DNA from: Candidatus Eiseniibacteriota bacterium | GTDB taxonomy: Bacteria > Joyebacterota > Joyebacteria > Joyebacterales > Joyebacteraceae | DNA: 64,000 bases | Assembly (NCBI GenBank): GCA_030622115.1 | Contig: JAUXGN010000010.1 | Location: forward strand, 1 to 64,000 | Direction of reading: 5' to 3' | Shown: positions 2,954-48,543 of the stretch, piece after piece | How the letters are laid out: every line of letters begins with the position of its first letter | Position numbering within the stretch: position 1 is the stretch's first letter | The notes under the pieces: model-generated | Seen by the model: the letters and a program-made list of their open reading frames with translations, nothing else | Told to the model about the DNA's origin: nothing | The model's database searches: none | Translations under genes and position numbers: made by a program

Positions 2954-3736
2954 CTAGTGGAGACCCGCCCTATCGCTCTCTCGCGGTCCGAGATTCGCGC
3001 GGCCGCGCGCTATGAAGTTGCGCACCGCCTTGTCTTCGGTGTCCATGAGTTCGTCAGTAGAACCAACGAACTCGATTCTCCCGCTCTCAACAAGCGCGAC
3101 CCTGTCTCCGATGAAACACGCGCTGTGCAGATCGTGCGTAACAACGATCGAGGTTGCGCTGAGCTTGTTCTGTGTGTCGCGAATCAGTTCGTTTATCTGC
3201 TCCGCCATGATCGGATCCAGCCCGGTCGTTGGCTCATCGTAGAGAATGATGTCCGGGTTGAGCGCTATCGCTCTCGCGAGCGCCACGCGTTTCTTCATAC
3301 CGCCCGATATCTCGGAGGGACGCAGTCCGGACAGACCTTCGAGGCCAACGAGTCTGAGTTTATCTTCGATGAGCGTTTCCAGCTCCTGTCCGCGCATCCC
3401 CTTGCGCTCGACGGCCGGCAACCCGATATTCTCTCCCACGGTCATCGAATCGAAGAGCGCCGCCCCCTGGAAGACCATCCCGAAATGCTGTCTGGCTTCG
3501 CCAAGTTCTTTCACGCTCATGTCGAAGATGTTCCTGCCGCAGAACAGGACTTCGCCGCGATCAGGTACAAGGAGGCCGATGATATGCTTTAGAAGGACGC
3601 TTTTCCCGCAACCCGATGGTCCCAGAACGACCAGCGTCTCTCCCTCGATGAGCTCAAGACTGATCCCTTTGAGCACTTGGTTGTCCCCGAACGACTTCCA
3701 GAGGTCCCGCACATCAATGAGGGTTCGACCGGACAC
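2954..3736 (-). CDS. MlaF-type ABC transporter ATP-binding protein
   Basis: This is the cytoplasmic ATPase of the MCE lipid transporter, 260 residues from a GTG at 3736 with AGGAGG just upstream. It shows Walker A GPSGCGKS near residue 40, signature ISGGMKKRVALARA, Walker B IILYDEPTTGLDP and the H-loop VTHDLHS. SGGMKKR, rather than SGGQ, is typical of MlaF/Mkl-family ATPases. The reading frame extends upstream to 3919, but that part overlaps mlaE and lacks family similarity. It lies 8 nt downstream of the mlaE stop and upstream of the MCE gene, so the three form one unit. Confidence 0.93.
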   Translation of the reverse strand: MSGRTLIDVRDLWKSFGDNQVLKGISLELIEGETLVVLGPSGCGKSVLLKHIIGLLVPDRGEVLFCGRNIFDMSVKELGEARQHFGMVFQGAALFDSMTVGENIGLPAVERKGMRGQELETLIEDKLRLVGLEGLSGLRPSEISGGMKKRVALARAIALNPDIILYDEPTTGLDPIMAEQINELIRDTQNKLSATSIVVTHDLHSACFIGDRVALVESGRIEFVGSTDELMDTEDKAVRNFIARGRANLGPRESDRAGLH

Positions 3737-10558: not shown

Positions 10559-12007
10559 GTGAATCAAGCCCTTTTGTCTCGACTGATCGGTGAAATCTCC
10601 CCGCAGATCGCCGGCGCAGGCGTCACCCGCGTTCACTGGTTGGCGGATGAGGCTCTGGCTCTCAAGCTCGCCGCCGTGCGCCCGAGTTTCCTTGTGATCT
10701 CTATCTCACGTGCGCTCCCCCTCATCTTCCTTGCAGACACATGCCCTCCTCCGACCGGAGCGAAGGAAAATCGATCACCCGATCTCGAGCGGGAACTCAA
10801 GGGAGCAACGATCCAGTCCATGACGGCAGCGCGCGATCGCACGGCAGCCGAGTTCTCACTCGTTCGCACACACGCGACCGGCTTTGAAACCAAGCGAACG
10901 CTTGTCGTTGAACTTGGCTCCAGACCCGGCATCGTCGTGCGTCCGACCGCACGGCCGCGTTCGAGCGAGGATGAGGAACACAACACATCGCCACAGGAGC
11001 CGGCCGTAGACTATACTGGGTCGGCCTTTGTCACATCCTGGACCGACAACCAGGAACGCACGCATGTCAGGCTGTCCGACCGGCGGTCCAGCGACGCTCA
11101 CGCGGGCGACACAAGAACGTTCGATTCGGTCAACGATGCCGCCGCGCACGCCTTCCATACGTTTTTCGATGTCATCAGCATGGACCACAGACGCGCTGCG
11201 GTCTCCCGACTCGTTCTCAAACGTCTCGCGCGGAAACGGCGCGCGATCGCCAAGGTCGAGGCGGAGATAGCGGACTCACAGAACGCAGACGAGCACCGCA
11301 CGAAGGGGCAGCTGATTCTTGCGCGGAAGGGCGACATTCCCCGGGGCGCCCAAGTCGCTCACCTCAAGGACTTCGACGAGAGTTCGATCGTGGAGATAGC
11401 GATCAACCCTTCTCTCTCCCCCACCCAGAACGCCGAGAACTACTTCAAGCGTGCAAGAAAGGCCGCGAGACGTGGTGCGAAGGCGCCGGCACGGCTTGGA
11501 GAGCTGGAGGTGGAGGCCGAGAAGCTTGAGGCCGTGGGCGCCTCGATCGCCGACGCATCAATCGAGCGGCTCGCGGAGATCGAGAAGCGTTTCCGTGTGG
11601 GGAAAGCCGTGAGATCGCGCGGGAGATCTACCCCTCCACGCGCGCACTTCCGCACGTACGTGGTCAGCGGTGGCTGGGAGGTCCTCGTGGGCCGCTCGAA
11701 CAAGGACAACGATATCCTCACCCACCGGATAGCGAACCAGAGCGACCTCTGGTTCCACGCGCGCCAGGCTGCCGGCTCGCATGTCATCCTGAGAATCCCA
11801 AGCGGGAAGGCCCGCCCCGATCGCCGGGCCATCCTTGAGGCGGCGGCCATAGCCGCCTTCCATAGCAAGGCGGGGCGCTCATCAAAAGTGTCTGTGAGCT
11901 ACACGGAGAAGCGACACGTAAGAAAGCCGCGAGGCGCCAAGCCGGGACTTGCCGTAATCTCCCGTGAGAAGAGCGTCATGGTGAGACCTCAGATCCCACA
12001 AACATAG
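10559..12007 (+). CDS. NFACT-family protein (RqcH/Tae2-like ribosome quality control factor)
   Basis: The 482-residue protein begins at GTG 10559 (NQALLSRLIGEIS), with GGAGA 7 nt upstream. It has an N-terminal NFACT-N-like domain, a central helical coiled-coil region (about 260-390; NPSLSPTQNAENYFKRARKA is the classic NFACT linker) and a C-terminal NFACT-R/DUF814 domain (VGRSNKDNDILTHRIANQSD, LWFHARQAAGSHVILR, VSYTEKRHVRKPRGAKPG). RqcH recruits tRNA-Ala to stalled 50S subunits and tags nascent chains with alanine. The region between about 60 and 160 is poorly conserved by eye. It is monocistronic and divergent from yicC. Confidence 0.88.
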   Translation: MNQALLSRLIGEISPQIAGAGVTRVHWLADEALALKLAAVRPSFLVISISRALPLIFLADTCPPPTGAKENRSPDLERELKGATIQSMTAARDRTAAEFSLVRTHATGFETKRTLVVELGSRPGIVVRPTARPRSSEDEEHNTSPQEPAVDYTGSAFVTSWTDNQERTHVRLSDRRSSDAHAGDTRTFDSVNDAAAHAFHTFFDVISMDHRRAAVSRLVLKRLARKRRAIAKVEAEIADSQNADEHRTKGQLILARKGDIPRGAQVAHLKDFDESSIVEIAINPSLSPTQNAENYFKRARKAARRGAKAPARLGELEVEAEKLEAVGASIADASIERLAEIEKRFRVGKAVRSRGRSTPPRAHFRTYVVSGGWEVLVGRSNKDNDILTHRIANQSDLWFHARQAAGSHVILRIPSGKARPDRRAILEAAAIAAFHSKAGRSSKVSVSYTEKRHVRKPRGAKPGLAVISREKSVMVRPQIPQT

Positions 12008-12038: not shown

Positions 12039-13961
12039 CTACACCTGGTCCACGTAGTCCCTGTGCCAGAGTTCGAGCGTTAGTAGCGCCATCAGCATCC
12101 CGCTCGAGCTGGAGTAGTACCTGACCCCGTCCGAGAAGAAGCTGTTCAGGATCCCGGACAACCCCTCCCTTGAGAAGTACCCTCGCTCGATTGAACGCTT
12201 GTCCGTCAGGATGCTCGTAATGGTGTCTCTCAACTCTCCGGCGAACCAGTGGTCCCGCGCGATCGCAAAACCGCTCTTCCCTGGCGCAAGCGTTTCGTCC
12301 GGAAGAAGTCCCAGCAACGAGCGACGGAGAATTGCCTTCTGAAGAGGACCATGGATCCGGTCACCTATCGGCAGCCCACGGGAAAAGTCAACCAGATCCC
12401 CTTCGAGATAGGGCATCCTGCATTCAAGGGAATGAGCAGAGCATGTCCGCTCCACCTTCGGCAAAAGACAGTCATGAAGATAAAAATGAACGTCAAAGTG
12501 CAGGTATTGCTCAAGAGGATGCCGACCACGCGCGCGCTCCATCACAGGCAGCACATTGCGCGACGAAGGAGTTGACCTCGAGAGTTTGAAAAACCCCGGC
12601 GAGTAGAGTGACCGCTGAACCATCATGGGTATGATGCGCGGCTCGTAGCTGATCTCGCCCGGGTCGAGCGAATCTCTGTAGAGCTTCCGCACGATCTTCG
12701 ACCCCGTTTTCTCATCCGCTGCAGTGATCGGGAGCATCCGAAAGATGTGTCTGAAGCCGCTCCTGCGAAGCGCTCGTCTTCGCCACCCGGGCGACTGGAC
12801 GCTACGCAGAAGAGTGGCGTGACGGTTGCTGCCGCCGAGGAGCTGGTCCGGACCGTCCCCCGTCAGTACTACACCCACTCCATTCGCCGCAACCTCGGCT
12901 CCGTGATAGCAGGGGAAGGCGGAGGAATCCTCAAAGGGCGAATCGAACACCTTCACCAGGCGGCTCATGAGGGGTACGAAATCGGACACCTTCAGGATCG
13001 ATGGATTCCAATCCAGGTCGAGACGGCGTGCGATCACCTCGGCCGCCGCTATCTCACTGAAGCGTTCATCGTCGAAGCCGACAGTGAAGGCCTTGAGGCC
13101 GGCGCCAAGGACCGAACTCAGAATCGCACAGACGCCCGCCGAGTCGACTCCCCCACTCAGGAATGCTCCCGGTGTGTCGAGACCGTCGGTGCACTTCCTG
13201 ACGGCGTCCGTCAAGAGGCCGCGAAATCTGGTGACACGCTCCGCTTCGGGCAGCCCGAACGCCGAGTCATCGAAATCGAAGCGCCAGTAGTGTTTGGAGA
13301 TTGCGCTCTCGCTCCGAACATCGAGCAGACCGCCCGGATCTACCTGCAGGATACCCTTGAACATCGTCTCGGGATGGGGAATGTAGCCGAACGACAGGAG
13401 ATCGTTGATGGCCGGCGCATTCACTTCGGTCTTGATGAACCCACTGGCAAGAAGAGCCTTGATCTCTGACGCGAACAGACAGAGGCCGTCTGAGAACGCG
13501 TAGTAGAGTGGTCGCACTCCCATCCGGTCTCTCGCGAGGATGAGCCGTCGCTTCTCACCGTCCCAAACGGCCACAGCGAAGTGCCCGTTCAGGAGACCAG
13601 CGACGTTCTCGCCCGATTTCCGGTAGATCTCGGTGACCATACCCTCGACGGGAGTCATCCCCACGCCCTCAGGAACAACACCGTCGGAAGCGACACCATC
13701 CATGCCGGGCGCTTCGAAGAGAACACCCCCGAGGATGCAGGTCACGGCAGTGTCAGGCGCTTCCGTATCGGTCGCATCCACATGACGAAGATCAGGACCA
13801 TCGGGAAGGCGGACAGCGAGGGCAGCCTCGGCGCCCACAAAGAAGCGGCGCTCTATGGCGCCGCGGTGCGAGATGGCAGCCGACATGTCCTCTAGTGCCC
13901 TTCGCTTCTCACTGGAGCTCAGACTGCCCCCGAAATCCACAATTCCACAGATGCCGGCCAC
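12039..13961 (-). CDS. Asparagine synthetase-like protein with degenerate glutaminase site
   Basis: The 640-residue two-domain AsnB-family protein starts at GTG 13961 (GGGAGA upstream). The C-terminal synthetase domain is intact, with PP-loop LSGGVDSAG at 268-276, and LEQYLHFDVHFYLHDCLLPKVE and HSLECRMPYL further on. The N-terminal class II amidotransferase domain keeps its fold signatures (ISHRG, LNGHFAVAVWD, ARDRMGVRPLYYA, FASEIKALL). However, the mature N-terminal Cys is Ala (MAGICG in place of MCGI), and the NGEIYN glutamine-binding strand reads LGGVLFEA. It probably cannot hydrolyse glutamine and may use ammonia or another amine. Similar loss occurs in beta-lactam synthetases and lasso cyclases. 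A methyltransferase gene lies 22 nt upstream. Confidence 0.85.
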   Translation of the reverse strand: MAGICGIVDFGGSLSSSEKRRALEDMSAAISHRGAIERRFFVGAEAALAVRLPDGPDLRHVDATDTEAPDTAVTCILGGVLFEAPGMDGVASDGVVPEGVGMTPVEGMVTEIYRKSGENVAGLLNGHFAVAVWDGEKRRLILARDRMGVRPLYYAFSDGLCLFASEIKALLASGFIKTEVNAPAINDLLSFGYIPHPETMFKGILQVDPGGLLDVRSESAISKHYWRFDFDDSAFGLPEAERVTRFRGLLTDAVRKCTDGLDTPGAFLSGGVDSAGVCAILSSVLGAGLKAFTVGFDDERFSEIAAAEVIARRLDLDWNPSILKVSDFVPLMSRLVKVFDSPFEDSSAFPCYHGAEVAANGVGVVLTGDGPDQLLGGSNRHATLLRSVQSPGWRRRALRRSGFRHIFRMLPITAADEKTGSKIVRKLYRDSLDPGEISYEPRIIPMMVQRSLYSPGFFKLSRSTPSSRNVLPVMERARGRHPLEQYLHFDVHFYLHDCLLPKVERTCSAHSLECRMPYLEGDLVDFSRGLPIGDRIHGPLQKAILRRSLLGLLPDETLAPGKSGFAIARDHWFAGELRDTITSILTDKRSIERGYFSREGLSGILNSFFSDGVRYYSSSSGMLMALLTLELWHRDYVDQV

Positions 13962-13983
13962 TGGTATCTCCCACAGAAATTAC

Positions 13984-14760
13984 TCACGCGCGCTTCCGCG
14001 CCACGCAGTAGAGCCAGCTGCTGTCTGTACACGGCTTCTCAATGTCGATGATGTTGCCCTTGAGATCGTAGGTCTCCAGAAGCTCGAAGCCAACATTCCC
14101 AAGCTGCGCGGCCAGATGTCGATGTGTGATATAGTACGTGACGAGACCGAAATTGTGCGCCGGATCGTTGATTATCTCGTATGTCTCCTCACTGCGCTCG
14201 AACTGGCGGTCGTACCGACGGTTCCTGGTGCGTCGACGGAATCTCACCACTCTGCGCACCAATGCGAAAGGATCGATGGTGAAATGGAAGTCCGGCTCCT
14301 TGACCGCACCAACGTAGTCCCTGTTGTGCGTGGAGAAGGAGAATAGTCCGCCGTCCTTCAGGATCCGGTGCACCTCCCGAAGACCTATGATCCGGTCCTC
14401 ATGGGAGAGCGAGTCCATCCCGTTATTGGCGAAGTTGGCAAAATCGAAATAGCCGTCCTCGTAGCGGGACATGTCTCTGAAGTCGCCGAAACTGCAATCG
14501 ATGTCGCCGCAGAACTCCAGGCACTGCTTGACCATCTCGTGTGAATAGTCGATCGCTACGTATTCGCCCGCCCACTTGGTCAGAAAGACCGCCGTTCTGC
14601 CGGCGCCACACCCGATATCAAGGACCCGATGCCCTGAGATCTCACCGCGGTACTTGACATATATCATAACCTCCGGCATCTGGAGCGTGCTGTGGATGTA
14701 CATCGCCGCGGTGCGCTTCGCTCCGTAGCAGTGCTTGTTTGTGTCGTCATAGCCCGTCAT
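13984..14760 (-). CDS. Class I SAM-dependent methyltransferase
   Basis: The 258-residue protein starts at ATG 14760, which has GGAGGTGATC just upstream. Rossmann motif I is VLDIGCGAGRTAVFL at about residue 53, followed by AIDYSHEMVKQC (motif II acidic residue), DFRDMSRYEDGYFDFANFANN (motif III/post I) and LREVHRILKDGGLFSFSTHN (motif IV region). The substrate is unknown. It lies 22 nt upstream of the glutaminase-dead asparagine synthetase-like gene in the same direction, which suggests one transcript and possibly a shared small-molecule or peptide substrate; that link is inference. Confidence 0.88.
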   Translation of the reverse strand: MTGYDDTNKHCYGAKRTAAMYIHSTLQMPEVMIYVKYRGEISGHRVLDIGCGAGRTAVFLTKWAGEYVAIDYSHEMVKQCLEFCGDIDCSFGDFRDMSRYEDGYFDFANFANNGMDSLSHEDRIIGLREVHRILKDGGLFSFSTHNRDYVGAVKEPDFHFTIDPFALVRRVVRFRRRTRNRRYDRQFERSEETYEIINDPAHNFGLVTYYITHRHLAAQLGNVGFELLETYDLKGNIIDIEKPCTDSSWLYCVARKRA

Positions 14761-14986
14761 TCGATCACCTCCGTGCGCTTGGCGAAGCACGAAAGAACAA
14801 AGCAAGAAAAGTGCCTAGTCTTCCCTTCCTCCCAATTCGCCATGCGTCTCGCCGCCCATATATCCCCATGATGAGAATCCCACGGCAGGCCGCGAGCCGC
14901 AAGCGATTCCCGCCCAACCCACAGTTCGAGCATCCGCGCGGAGAAGAACGGTAGTCTCGACGCTCACATCGAGACCTGCCGGTTCC

Positions 14987-15015
14987 TTGATGTTCACTGC
15001 GTGTTGTGGTATAAT
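14987..15015 (+). promoter_or_regulatory. Sigma-70-type promoter with extended -10 for the papain-like protease gene
   Basis: TTGATG (14987-14992) and TATAAT (15010-15015) are spaced by 17 bp, with TGG before the -10 (extended -10). Transcription from about 15022 leaves a leader of about 109 nt before ATG 15131. The rest of the 14761-15130 divergent intergenic region holds only the methyltransferase ribosome site; I see no other feature in it. Confidence 0.7.
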
Positions 15016-15130: not shown

Positions 15131-17623
15131 ATGAGCAGAATGCATCCGGTCCATCGTCTGGTCCTGATAGGACTGGGCTGTGTCATGGCGGTCCCGCTCA
15201 TGTCGCAAGCTCAAATACCTGCCGAATACGACCTTCGCGACGTCGGGGGTGAGAACTACGTCACGCCCGTCAAGAGCCAGAGCGGAGGCACTTGTTGGAC
15301 GTTCGGATCGATGTCGGCCGTCGAGGGGAATCTCCTGATAACGGGTGCGTGGACTGCCGCGGGCGAGACGGGAGAGCCGAACCTGGCAGAGTACCACCTC
15401 GACTGGTGGAACGGCTTCAACGACCACTACAACCAGGATATCTATCCCACGTCCGGCGGGCTTACGGTTCACCAGGGCGGCGACTACCGCGTCACAACAG
15501 CCTATCTATCGAGAGCAGAGGGTGCGGTCCGCGATGAGGACGGTCAATCGTACAGCACGCCCCCACTGCGGGCGTCCGAGACCTACCACTACTACTACCC
15601 AAGAGATGTAGAGTGGTTCGTGGCGGGCGAGAATCTGGAGAACATCGACGTCATCAAGCAGGTCATCATGGATCACGGCGTCATCGCAACCGCCCTGTGC
15701 TACGACAGCCAGTTCATAACGAACTACATCCACTACCAGCCACCGTCCAGCATCATCGAGCCGAATCACGGCGTATCGATCGTCGGATGGGACGACAGCA
15801 AGAGTACGCAGGCGACCGAGGGTCCCGGTGCGTGGCTCGTCAAGAACAGCTGGGGCAGCGGCTGGGGATACGACGGCTACTTCTGGATCTCCTACTACGA
15901 CAAGCACTGCTGTCAGAATCCGGAGATGGGCGCCGTCTCCTTCCAGAACGTCGAGCCGTTCGCATACGAGAACACCTACTACCACGACTACCACGCCTGG
16001 CGCGACACACTGACAACTGCATCCGAAGCGTTCAACGCCTTTACGGCGGACGGTGACGAGCTCCTGCAGGCGGTGAGCTTCTTCACTGCAGTCGACAATG
16101 TCGACTATGTGGTAAGCATCTACGACGACTTCGTCGGAGGAGAACTCCAAAATCTCCTAGCGACGCAGTCCGGTTCATACGAGCGCACCGGCTTCCATAC
16201 GGTCGATCTGCCCTCGCCCGTGACCCTCTGCGCCGGCAACGACTTCTACACATATGTCAGCTTCTCTCAGGGCGGTCATCCCTACGACCGCACGTCGGAT
16301 GTACCCGTTCTTCTCGGCGCCAGCTACCGGGTCATCGTTGAGTCGAGCGCGTCCGCGGGTGAGAGCTACTACAAGAGCGGCGGCGACTGGCTCGATTTCT
16401 ACGACTACGATGACGGGTCGTGGAGCCAGACCGGCAACTTCTGTATCAAGGCACTCACGATCGACGCCGGGCTCAGTGTGACGCCGGCAGGCGATTTTGA
16501 ATCCGAGGGGCCGACCGGCGGACCGTTCCTACCGGCGGACACCGAGTACGATATGGAATACAGGGGCAGCGCGTCGATCAACTACGAGGTTACGGTAGTC
16601 GATCCTTCGGTCACGTGGATTACGCTTTCCGGCGACACCGGGGGCGTTCTCACCCCTGGCGACACGGCAACCGTGACTGTGACAATCAACAGCAACGCGG
16701 AACTCCTGCCTGACGGCGCCTATGTTGCGGAACTATGGTTCCGGAATCTCTCGAACGGCTTGGGAGACGCGATGCGCGACGTCGTCCTCGCTGTCGGCAC
16801 GAGCGAGAAGCAATACGAATGGACGCTCGACACCGACCCTGGTTGGTCAACCGACGGCCAGTGGGCATACGGACAGCCAACCGGTGGTGGTGGCCAGTAC
16901 GGCGAGCCCGACCCGACGGCCGGGCACACAGGATCCAACGTCTGCGGCTACAATCTGAGCGGAGACTATCCGAACAACCTGTCACAGATGCATCTCACGA
17001 CAGGATCGATAGACTGTCAGGATTTTTACAATGTCCATCTCATCTTCTGGAGATGGCTCGGCGTCGAGCAGCCCGACTACGATCACGCTTCTGTCGCCGT
17101 GAGTGTGAACGGTGCCGACTGGGTGACGGTCTGGGAGAATGCAGCAGAGATCGCTGACACCGAGTGGACGCAGATGGACGTCGACATCTCATCCATCGCC
17201 GATGACGCGGAAACGGTCTACCTCCGATGGACAATGGGAACCACGGATGGCGGGTGGATGTACTGCGGATGGAACATCGATGATATCGAGGTTTGGGCCA
17301 TTTCCACAGTCGGTTCAGATGTCGATGATGACAACGACCTCATCCGCGAGGCCCGGCTTGACCCCGTCAGACCGAACCCGTTCAACCCGACCGCCACGAT
17401 CTCGTTCGCGCTTCCCGAGCCGGGCGAGGTCGAGATCGCGGTCTACGATCTAGCCGGACGGCTGGTGACGGTGCTCGAGCACGGCCCGCGCGACGCGGGC
17501 GCGCACGCGATCGTGTGGAACGGAACCGACGCCGATGGAAGACGGCTGAGTTCCGGTGTCTACTTCGTGCGGCTCCTGGCCGGAGAGACGGCGGCCGTGC
17601 GGAAGATGGTGATGGTCAAGTAG
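15131..17623 (+). CDS. Secreted papain-family (C1) cysteine protease with C-terminal FlgD-like sorting domain
   Basis: The protein has 830 residues. A signal peptide (1-28, ending MSQAQ) runs straight into a mature-type C1 domain with no propeptide: Q50 and C55 in KSQSGGTCWTF, His near 213 in NHGVSIVGWDD, Asn near 238 in LVKNSWGSGWG. A lectin-like beta domain follows (about 280-450), then an Ig-like segment (about 460-560) and a jelly-roll/MAM-like domain (about 575-725). The last 80 residues form a FlgD-like domain (RPNPFNPTATISF, SGVYFVRLLAGE, ending KMVMVK), used for cell-surface sorting in FCB bacteria. GGGAG lies 7 nt before ATG. The downstream neighbour carries the same tail. Confidence 0.9.
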   Translation: MSRMHPVHRLVLIGLGCVMAVPLMSQAQIPAEYDLRDVGGENYVTPVKSQSGGTCWTFGSMSAVEGNLLITGAWTAAGETGEPNLAEYHLDWWNGFNDHYNQDIYPTSGGLTVHQGGDYRVTTAYLSRAEGAVRDEDGQSYSTPPLRASETYHYYYPRDVEWFVAGENLENIDVIKQVIMDHGVIATALCYDSQFITNYIHYQPPSSIIEPNHGVSIVGWDDSKSTQATEGPGAWLVKNSWGSGWGYDGYFWISYYDKHCCQNPEMGAVSFQNVEPFAYENTYYHDYHAWRDTLTTASEAFNAFTADGDELLQAVSFFTAVDNVDYVVSIYDDFVGGELQNLLATQSGSYERTGFHTVDLPSPVTLCAGNDFYTYVSFSQGGHPYDRTSDVPVLLGASYRVIVESSASAGESYYKSGGDWLDFYDYDDGSWSQTGNFCIKALTIDAGLSVTPAGDFESEGPTGGPFLPADTEYDMEYRGSASINYEVTVVDPSVTWITLSGDTGGVLTPGDTATVTVTINSNAELLPDGAYVAELWFRNLSNGLGDAMRDVVLAVGTSEKQYEWTLDTDPGWSTDGQWAYGQPTGGGGQYGEPDPTAGHTGSNVCGYNLSGDYPNNLSQMHLTTGSIDCQDFYNVHLIFWRWLGVEQPDYDHASVAVSVNGADWVTVWENAAEIADTEWTQMDVDISSIADDAETVYLRWTMGTTDGGWMYCGWNIDDIEVWAISTVGSDVDDDNDLIREARLDPVRPNPFNPTATISFALPEPGEVEIAVYDLAGRLVTVLEHGPRDAGAHAIVWNGTDADGRRLSSGVYFVRLLAGETAAVRKMVMVK

Positions 17624-45123: not shown

Positions 45124-46878
45124 CTAGCCCGCGTCCCGCGCCTTCGCGATTCTTGCCCAAGTATCTCTCAGGCCAACCGAGCGGTTGAAGACGAGGCGCC
45201 CGGCTTTCGAGTCCACGGGATCGACTGAGAAATAGCCCTTCCTCAGGAACTGGTACGGCGTGCCGGACTCAGCACTCGCAAGACCCGGCTCCAATTTGCA
45301 ACCCACGAGGACTTCCACCGAATCAGGGTTCACGAGATCGGTGAAATCCTGGGCTGCGCCTGCCGCATCAGAGACCGCCTCGCCGTCGGCTGAAAGCTCC
45401 TCTCCCGGGAGAATTCTTTCATCGGGTGGAGCTTCGAGCAGAAGATGGTCGAACAGCCTCACCTCCGCGTCGAGGGCGTGCTCCGCCGAGACCCAGTGGA
45501 GCGTTCCCTTGACCTTGCGGCCATCGGGCGCGTCTCCGCCGCGTGTCTCAGGATCGTACGTGCATATGAGCTCCACGACTTCTCCCGTGGCAGAATCCTT
45601 CACGACTTCACGGCACGTGATGAAGTAAGCGTGCTTGAGCCTGACCTCGCGCCCTGGAGCCAGCCGGAAGAATTTCTTAGGAGGATCCTCGTGGAAATCG
45701 CCGCGTTCGATGTAGATGACGCGCGAGAACGGGATCTTCCTCGTTCCCGCGCGAGCGTCCTCCGGGTTGTTGACGGCATCAAACTCCTCGACCTGCCCCT
45801 CGGGGTAGTTCTCGATCACGACCCTGAGCGGCCTGAGGACAGCCATGACCCTCTGTGCGCGCGCGTTCAGGTCATCACGCAGACAGTGCTCAAGAAGCTC
45901 AACCTCGATGGTCGTCGGCGTCTTGGCCACACCGACGCGCCCCAGAAAATCTCTGATGGCCTCGGGTGTGTAGCCGCGTCGCCTGAGCCCCGCTATTGTG
46001 GGCATGCGTGGATCGTCCCACCCCCACACGAGCCCTCCATCCACTAGACGAATGAGCTTCCGCTTGCTGAGAATCGTGCGTGTGAGGTTCAGGCGCGCGA
46101 ACTCTATCTGCTGCGGGTGGTAGACGTTCAGTTCGTCGAGGAACCAGTCATAGAGCGGCCTATGGTCCTCAAACTCGATCGAACAGTTCGAGTGCGTGAT
46201 GCGCTCGATGGAATCCGACAGGCAGTGGGTGAAATCGTACATCGGGTATATGCACCACTCATTTCCCGTCCGGTGATGCTGCGCATGAAGAATGCGATAG
46301 ATGACGGGGTCGCGCATGTTGATGTTCGGCGAGGCCATGTCGATCTTCGCGCGAAGCGTCCTCGAACCGTTCGGGAACTCCCCTGCCTTCATGCGCCCGA
46401 AGAGCTCTGCGTTCTCTTCGATCGAGCGGTCGCGGTACGGACTGTTCCGTCCCTTCTCGGTCAGTGTCCCCCGATACTTGCGCATCTCCTCCTGCGAGAG
46501 GTCGCAGACATACGCCTTCCCAAGCCTGAGAAGCTCAAGCGCATACTCGTAGAGCCGATCGAAGTAGTCCGATGCGTAGAAGAGACGGTCGCCCCAGTCG
46601 AAGCCCATCCAGTGGATGTCCTCCTTGATCTGATCGACGTACTCCGTCTCCTCCTTGGTCGGATTCGTGTCGTCGAATCGGAGGTTGCACAAACCCCCGT
46701 ACTCATCGGCGATCGAGAAGTTGAGGTTGAACGCCTTCGCATGACCTATGTGAAGGTAGCCGTTCGGCTCGGGCGGGAAACGCGTCTGAACGCGCCCGTC
46801 GAACCGCCCGGTCCGGTTGTCCTCCTCCACCCTCGCTCTCACGAAATCGAGTCCGCGCTCTTTGTCGTTCCTCGCCAT
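45124..46878 (-). CDS. glnS: Glutaminyl-tRNA synthetase
   Basis: The 584-residue class I synthetase shows [20 protein letters not shown] (HIGH motif and GlnRS signature), [26 protein letters not shown], the class I ILSKRKL (KMSKS equivalent) and [23 protein letters not shown]. The C-terminal anticodon-binding beta-barrels include [27 protein letters not shown] and the final [26 protein letters not shown]. It charges tRNA-Gln directly. Length is normal. The AAAGG ribosome site lies 9 nt upstream. Confidence 0.97.
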
Positions 46879-46944: not shown

Positions 46945-48471
46945 CTACCCGTCCAGGCTCCCGACCGTGTTCTCAACGGCGTCGAGGATCTCACACGACC
47001 TGACAAGCTCCTGCATCGCAGTGTGGTCGGGGTAGAGCGGCCGGTCGATATCCAGGAACTCGACGTGCTTCCGGATGACCGCGTGCGCCGCACTCGTGCC
47101 CTTCCCCTTTTTGAAATCGCGGAAGTCCATTGCCTGCGCCGCTGCCATGAACTCGATCCCGAGAACGCCGTAGGCGTTGTCGATGATCTGTCCGTTCTTG
47201 ATCGCCGTGTTCATACCCATCGAGACGAAATCCTCCTGGTCGGCCGCTGCCGGTATCGACTGGATGCTCGCCGGCGCCGAGAGGATGCGCTGCTCCACGA
47301 TGAGGCTGTCGGCCGTGTACTGCGAGAGCATCATTCCGGACATCATCCCGGCGCCCTTTGAGAGGAACGGCGGAAGTCCGACCGAGAGCGCCGGGTTCGT
47401 CAGGCGATTCATGCGGCGCTCCGACAGAACGCAGATCATCGTTATGGCCGCACCGGCCATGTCCATCGGAAGCGAGACAGGTGATCCCTGGAAGTTCGCG
47501 CCGGTGATCGTGAGCTTGTACTCGGGGAAGAAGACCGGATTGTCGCCAACGCCGTTGAGTTCGACCTCGACCTGGCTCTTCGCCCAAAGGATCGCATCCT
47601 GCGCTGCGCCGATGACCTGGGGGGTCGAACGCATTGAGTAGGCGTCCTGAACCTTCATCTTCAGATTGCCCTCAGCCACGTCACCGCCGGCCATAACCTT
47701 GAGCAGCACTCCCGCTGTTCTGATAGCGCCCTTGAACCCGCGTGCCTGATGCAGACGCACGTCGTAGGGCTTTGTGTTCGCCATCAGGGCTTCGAGCGAC
47801 ATCGCGCAGGCAATCTCGGCGTGCTTGAGTATGCGCGTCATGTCGTAGATGTGGATCGCGCTCATCGCGGTCAGGAGGTTCGAACCGTTGATGGTGGCAA
47901 GCCCGTCCCGCGCCTCGAGTCCCGGAATCGGAATGCCCGCCTTCTCCATCGCGTCCTTGCCGGAAAGAAGCTTGCCCTCGTAGTAGGCGTGCCCCTCACC
48001 CATGAGGAGAAGCGCTATCTGGCTCATCGGCGCCAGATCTCCGCTGGCCCCGACCGAGCCCTTCTGGCAAACGAAGGGCGTCACTCCCTTGTTGAGCATT
48101 GCCGCAAGAGTGAGAGTGATATCCGGACGACATCCGGATCTGCCGTTGCAGTGCACGTTGATTCGTCCGGCCATCGCTCCGCGCACGTACTCGAGCGGTG
48201 CGGGATCGCCGATACCGGCGGCGTGATTGTATATGAGGTACTTCTGGAACTCCCCGACCTGCTCGTCGGTCAGCACGACCTCGGAGAATTCACCGATGCC
48301 CGTATTGACTCCATACATGATCTCGTGCGCCTGTATTTTCTCTTCCAGCATCGCACGGCAGGTCTTGATCCTCTCGAGCGCATCCGGATGAATCTCAACT
48401 TTCTCTCCATGCCGTGCGATCGCCACAAGTTTGTCAACAGTGAGTGTGTTCCCATCCAGTACGATCGACAT
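46945..48471 (-). CDS. hutH: Histidine ammonia-lyase-like MIO enzyme
   Basis: The 508-residue protein starts at ATG 48471 (GGGGGAG upstream). The MIO prosthetic group forms from Ala-Ser-Gly in KGSVGASGDLAPMSQIALL, at about residues 142-144, as in histidine ammonia-lyase. YGVNTGIGEFSEVVLT, the GDNPVFFP segment and QSIPAAADQEDFVSMGMNTA also fit. The usual SH of the substrate pocket reads YNHAAG. HAL deaminates histidine to urocanate, but related lyases and 2,3-aminomutases act on Tyr or Phe. No hutU, hutI or hutG lies nearby, so substrate is uncertain. Confidence 0.8.
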   Translation of the reverse strand: MSIVLDGNTLTVDKLVAIARHGEKVEIHPDALERIKTCRAMLEEKIQAHEIMYGVNTGIGEFSEVVLTDEQVGEFQKYLIYNHAAGIGDPAPLEYVRGAMAGRINVHCNGRSGCRPDITLTLAAMLNKGVTPFVCQKGSVGASGDLAPMSQIALLLMGEGHAYYEGKLLSGKDAMEKAGIPIPGLEARDGLATINGSNLLTAMSAIHIYDMTRILKHAEIACAMSLEALMANTKPYDVRLHQARGFKGAIRTAGVLLKVMAGGDVAEGNLKMKVQDAYSMRSTPQVIGAAQDAILWAKSQVEVELNGVGDNPVFFPEYKLTITGANFQGSPVSLPMDMAGAAITMICVLSERRMNRLTNPALSVGLPPFLSKGAGMMSGMMLSQYTADSLIVEQRILSAPASIQSIPAAADQEDFVSMGMNTAIKNGQIIDNAYGVLGIEFMAAAQAMDFRDFKKGKGTSAAHAVIRKHVEFLDIDRPLYPDHTAMQELVRSCEILDAVENTVGSLDG

Positions 48472-48543
48472 TCTTCTCCCCCGTGGATTCCATTCCCCTC
48501 GTCTGCCTGCCGGACTCATCCCGCCGGACAGCACAATGCTTCG

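Follow-up and report, generated by a model that had tools for sequence, protein, structure and literature searches.

On balance, the evidence favours a reading in which an operon with a sigma-54 promoter in a Candidatus Eisenbacteria genome encodes a methyltransferase together with an amide ligase that would join an acid and an amine, and would not make asparagine. The ligase candidate is an AsnB-like protein, predicted from its sequence to be dead as a glutaminase and intact in its synthetase part. It probably represents a lineage of amide ligases that falls in no curated family, and the product of the pathway is probably a surface component or a small molecule.

The window (the whole 64,000-nucleotide stretch of DNA analysed) comes from Candidatus Eisenbacteria (MAG G000, contig C44, 2.63 Mb, 100% complete) and was compared within a set of 20 genomes of the phylum, numbered from G000 onward and including the window's own. 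As originally predicted, the AsnB-like gene (positions 12039-13961, minus strand; 640 amino acids from a GTG start) lies 22 nt from a class I SAM-dependent methyltransferase gene (13984-14760, minus strand; 258 amino acids) in the same direction, the methyltransferase being the first gene of the operon. The 22-nt spacing is identical in three species. The AsnB-like gene is identified by its open reading frame, alignment, purifying selection (see below) and profile matches, with GATase_7 (3.5e-18) and Asn_synthase (PF00733; 5.8e-65, 220.7 bits) domains; its product is the sole protein in the genome above the PF00733 cut-off. The methyltransferase carries a Methyltransf_25 domain (3.5e-15) and has a dN/dS (omega) of 0.08 between the window and G004. 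The methyltransferase matched mad2 weakly in PADLOC, which gave nothing else. In the flanking DNA, a divergent papain-like protein is encoded at 15131-17623 (plus strand), with a signal-peptide-like start and a C-terminal sorting-type tail (NPFNP...VRKMVMVK), and a sigma-70-like promoter at 14987-15015 (plus strand) faces the divergent protease gene. On the other side, within the NFACT-like gene, ARAGORN calls a tRNA (10741-10828, minus strand) whose two-base anticodon is undefined; the call is probably a false positive.

The glutaminase site was examined in an alignment that set the four orthologues from Eisenbacteria (window, G004, G002 and G008) against 36 Cys-containing homologues, one of them E. 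coli AsnB. The window protein begins V/M-A-G-I-C-G (13944-13961, minus strand; VAGICG as read from the GTG), with Ala at the position of the nucleophile, Cys1, as the original prediction had noted from the reading MAGICG. In the order given above, the orthologues have A/A/A/S at this position, G/G/G/D at Asn74, V/V/V/A at Glu76 and P/P/S/E at Asp98, and Arg49 is changed to Leu in three of the four. Among the Cys-containing homologues, Cys1, Asn74 and Asp98 are invariant (36/36) and Glu76 is present in 34 of the 36. Where the glutamine-binding segment VNGEIYN is expected, the window protein reads LGGVLFE (13713-13733, minus strand), bearing out the earlier remark that GGV stands in place of NGE; across the four orthologues the NGE position reads GGV or DGA. 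That the replacement residues differ among orthologues is expected for a site no longer in use. Judged from these alignments, glutaminase loss is a lineage trait, neither chance nor an assembly error in a single genome. An upstream start regaining a Cys at position 2 was also considered and ruled out: an in-frame TAA lies seven codons before the GTG, and therefore an alternative start cannot restore the Cys.

The PP-loop of the ATP pyrophosphatase is intact (LSGGVDS, 13140-13160, minus strand), in agreement with the LSGGVDSAG first pointed out, and matches the SGGxDS pattern of the PP-loop synthetases of the AsnB superfamily (PF00733). Asp351 and Lys449 are likewise retained in the Eisenbacteria proteins, the equivalent of E. 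coli AsnB Lys449 falling within GKSGFA (12264-12281, minus strand). The most important change in the synthetase site is that of the DExxGGY motif. In the segment GDGPDQLLGGS (12828-12860, minus strand), the Glu352-Tyr357 pair (E. coli numbering) of amidating AsnB-family enzymes has become Gln and Ser. Every one of the 36 Cys-containing homologues has the pair, and each of the four Eisenbacteria proteins has Gln-Ser; the same positions are Ile/Met in beta-lactam synthetase and Ser/Phe in lasso cyclase (one sequence each). Since both Cys1 and the pair are replaced in the Eisenbacteria protein, it has both losses in common with these two ring-forming families. Beta-lactam synthetase and lasso cyclase, which also vary at the pair, use substrate amines. 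An equivalent Glu-Tyr pair is common to five amidating AsnB-family enzymes, where it sits at the substrate carboxylate (2026 preprint, PMC13060819); in PesC, a nitrile-forming AsnB-like enzyme, it probably activates the carboxylate, and a Tyr-to-Phe change abolishes activity (PMC13060819). We equated PesC Glu363-Tyr368 with Glu352-Tyr357 from their equal spacing and from the authors' comparison with E. coli AS.

A sigma-54 (-24/-12) type promoter, GGCACTTTTCTTGCT, is predicted at 14801-14815 (minus strand), upstream of the methyltransferase; its distance from the start codon, as scored with the 18-bp motif, is 39 nt. It is the sole exact match in the window, where 0.07 are expected. The motif is equally far from the methyltransferase in five members of the genus (G001, G002, G003, G004 and the window), the G004 copy having one change in the first half (GGCAT), as well as in G008, with a different spacer (GGCACCGATATTGCA); degenerate counterparts are found upstream of the methyltransferase in G006, G010, G012 and G015. 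The GG(-24)/GC(-12) spacing, the conservation across species and the presence of rpoN in the genome (RpoN, 415 bits) all fit a predicted sigma-54 promoter. From the 22-nt intergenic gap, in which no terminator-like site was found, the AsnB-like gene would most simply be co-transcribed with the methyltransferase. Comparative work ties sigma-54 to the building of the bacterial exterior (PMC3162934), which makes an exterior role for the operon plausible. The promoter motif upstream of the methyltransferase (in the window and at loci L069, L070, L072, L073, L074, L075 and L078) is thus conserved across several Eisenbacteria genera, independently of the AsnB-like gene.

Of the two genes, the methyltransferase is older and more widely distributed, occurring in 13 of the 20 genomes; the AsnB-like gene is an accessory present in four, in two genera. 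The downstream NFACT-like gene is present in 19. Nine genomes have the methyltransferase without the AsnB-like gene, including two, G001 and G003, of the same genus, where the methyltransferase abuts the NFACT-like gene with clean junctions and about 60 nt between the stop codons. In the methyltransferase tree, G001 and G003 diverge first within the genus, whose sister is G008 (95/97). This topology and the identities between the window and G008 (AsnB-like protein 52%, methyltransferase 60%, NFACT 51%) fit vertical descent of the AsnB-like gene, with loss in G001 and G003. The proposal that the two enzymes jointly modify one substrate thus stands in part: the pair is conserved in relatives (the four genomes of two genera), but the methyltransferase occurs alone in nine others, so that functional coupling is not obligatory.

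Genes for ATPgrasp_ST ligases (PF14397) come after the methyltransferase, in the same orientation, in G006, G010, G012 and G015, often followed by an S9 peptidase gene. In G009 a gene for a Cys/Met-metabolism PLP enzyme separates methyltransferase and ATP-grasp, and the methyltransferase ahead of the ATP-grasp gene is a different one in G017 and G018. These ligases of sister Eisenbacteria share with the AsnB-like protein their place behind the same methyltransferase, on the same strand, but are of an unrelated fold and family, come in one to three copies and are absent from AsnB-positive genomes. The AsnB-like (4/20) and ATP-grasp (9/20) genes never occur in the same genome, a pattern suggestive of replacement; both distributions follow descent, each forming one clade on the methyltransferase tree, and with this confounding the exclusion was set aside as proof that one gene replaced the other. 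In G008 the AsnB-like gene is followed by an Asp/Glu racemase gene found in no other of the 20 genomes of the phylum, and thus no more than a hint. Elsewhere in the phylum, three neighbouring genes at locus L107 (G014:C27, 1050-3722, plus strand), for a 96-aa product, a radical SAM-like protein (CNLTCRYC) and an ATPgrasp_ST protein, may form a RiPP-like cluster.

A role for the AsnB-like protein in asparagine supply was ruled out. AsnA is found in 16 of the 20 genomes, among them G000 (290.8 bits, slightly below the cut-off of 292.8) and the genus mates G001 and G003 that do not have the AsnB-like gene; asparagine is therefore made by another route. AsnRS matches occur in all 20 genomes (above cut-off in 18), GatB is encoded in the genome, and the window contains a putative GlnRS-like ORF (45124-46878). 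Adjoining the latter is a predicted ORF resembling MIO-type aromatic amino acid ammonia-lyases/aminomutases (ASGDLAP; 46945-48534, minus strand).

Among curated profiles, the AsnB-like protein matches TIGR03108 best (306 bits; cut-off 816.9), followed by TIGR01536 (251.8; cut-off 267.1), TIGR03104 (185) and the lasso model NF033535 (144.4; cut-off 525). It falls short of TIGR01536 (asparagine synthetase B, glutamine-hydrolysing), whose Cys nucleophile and NGE are missing from all four orthologues. Its best profiles, two-domain order and GDG motif are those of AsnB-like amidotransferases of polysaccharide clusters, including the XrtA/PEP-CTERM type (TIGR03108, TIGR01536); it differs from these in scoring below both cut-offs, in being without Cys1, NGE and the Glu-Tyr pair, and in having no exosortase or glycosyltransferase genes beside it. 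The best PDB sequence match, the hydroxyamidotransferase 7YLZ (4e-23), covers part of the protein only.

The glutaminase-dead references were one beta-lactam synthetase (1JGT family; the S. clavuligerus plasmid copy, L091) and one lasso cyclase (the Priestia copy, L092). The former ranks TIGR01536 and E. coli AsnB first, the latter the lasso model, to which ordinary AsnB-like proteins score 280-289 bits, above the Eisenbacteria protein and like it far below the cut-off. With beta-lactam synthetase the AsnB-like protein shares the dead glutaminase, the replaced pair and the retained PP-loop and Lys449. It differs at position 348, which is the catalytic Tyr of that enzyme (1JGT) and is Asp in all four Eisenbacteria orthologues; the match to the solved structure is 49 bits. 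The Eisenbacteria proteins, all four, group as a single clade (100/99) with a long stem, to which three phylogenetic analyses gave conflicting, long-branch-driven positions. Rooted on beta-lactam synthetase, the clade falls outside all others; in one tree it joins beta-lactam synthetase at 96/91, on long branches and with other placements not rejected; with long branches removed, it sits beside the ordinary Cys-containing L010 (SH-aLRT 88). AU tests rejected none of the groupings tried, including those with lasso cyclase or beta-lactam synthetase. We read the profile ranking, which is like that of ordinary polysaccharide-type AsnB-like proteins, as a sign that the glutaminase was probably lost separately from beta-lactam synthetases and lasso cyclases. 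The suggestion that such loss marks amide or lactam formers rather than asparagine makers is therefore upheld as regards asparagine (AsnA is encoded elsewhere, and Glu352-Tyr357 is replaced as in both families), but kinship with either family is not supported: the lasso score is low, and the AU tests reject no placement.

These comparisons bear on the alternatives. Were the protein close kin of lasso-type or beta-lactam-type cyclases, forming a lactam within one molecule, the shared losses at Cys1 and the Glu-Tyr pair would be explained, and the AU tests reject neither grouping; we nonetheless regard this as improbable. Lasso family membership is ruled out by the score (144.4 of 525 bits), lower than that of ordinary AsnB-like proteins, and by genomic context: the neighbourhood in the window showed no recognisable gene for a lasso precursor peptide, a leader peptidase or an RRE, in keeping with what the original prediction said of the precursor, where a very short or distant peptide may escape, and no clavam or beta-lactam pathway genes lie beside the AsnB-like gene. 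Conserved small ORFs near the locus are shadows of known genes, and no transporter, precursor peptide or evident substrate is visible at the locus. Somewhat less unlikely, yet still doubtful, is an ammonia-dependent AsnB-type enzyme that converts a small carboxylate or a glycan uronate into a primary amide, with free ammonia in place of glutamine. AsnB-family enzymes can use ammonia without glutamine, as reported for PesC, and ordinary glycan-type AsnB-like proteins show the same profile order, TIGR03108 > TIGR01536 > TIGR03104; against it, the Glu352-Tyr357 pair is lost in all four orthologues, and AsnA already makes asparagine from ammonia.

The AsnB-like gene could also be decaying or moonlighting, leaving the methyltransferase as the only working gene of the operon. 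Its absence, with clean junctions, from two genus mates points that way, as do the broken reading frames of two orthologues out of four (L034 near 9176 in G002; L006 at 3190-3352 in G008), where the breaks are due either to assembly error or to decay. Both breaks, however, lie in MAG assemblies; the window and G004 copies are intact, and the catalytic residues are invariant. Between these two copies, dN/dS is 0.31 for residues 1-107, 0.17 for residues 108-235 and 0.23 for the whole N-terminal domain, which evolves faster than the synthetase domain (0.12). The ATP pyrophosphatase is under strong purifying selection, and decay seems an unlikely account. AlphaFold2 models of the two proteins, built from shallow alignments, had pLDDT values of 29 and 33, too low for use.

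For the favoured reading, that of an amide ligase and a methyltransferase under one sigma-54 promoter, the sequence itself shows the lost glutamine site, the kept ATP site, the altered carboxylate pocket, the selection, the conserved promoter motif and the gene order. What reaction takes place, which amine is used, that the two enzymes share a pathway and that it serves the exterior we infer as follows. Both genes would be read as one operon from the promoter, methyltransferase first. The AsnB-like protein would act as an ATP-dependent, AMP-forming amide ligase, its intact PP-loop domain adenylating a carboxylate, which would then pass, with departure of AMP, to an amine other than glutamine-derived ammonia, an amino group either of a second or of the same molecule. 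The dead N-terminal domain may be kept for a role in structure or in substrate shaping. The methyltransferase would work in the same pathway, independently of the ligase, and modify the acid, the amine or the product; in sister genera the ligase step may be filled by other enzyme families, namely the ATP-grasp proteins encoded downstream of the methyltransferase. Sigma-54 control and the Pfam label of the ATP-grasp family ("sugar-transfer associated") suggest that the product would be an amide-linked decoration or a small molecule of the cell exterior. A more specific version, in which a separate AsnB-fold amide ligase lineage lost the glutaminase and the Glu-Tyr pair independently and took over the ligase step that ATP-grasp enzymes fill in sister genera, in a sigma-54 pathway for an exterior or small-molecule product, is put forward only tentatively.

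The known glutaminase-dead branches compared here, beta-lactam synthetases and lasso cyclases, make unusual amide bonds. Loss of Cys1 together with the change from DExxGGY to DQLLGGS provides a signature for genome mining of amide ligases, and the operon is a two-gene pathway, in a phylum without cultured members, that can be put to the test.
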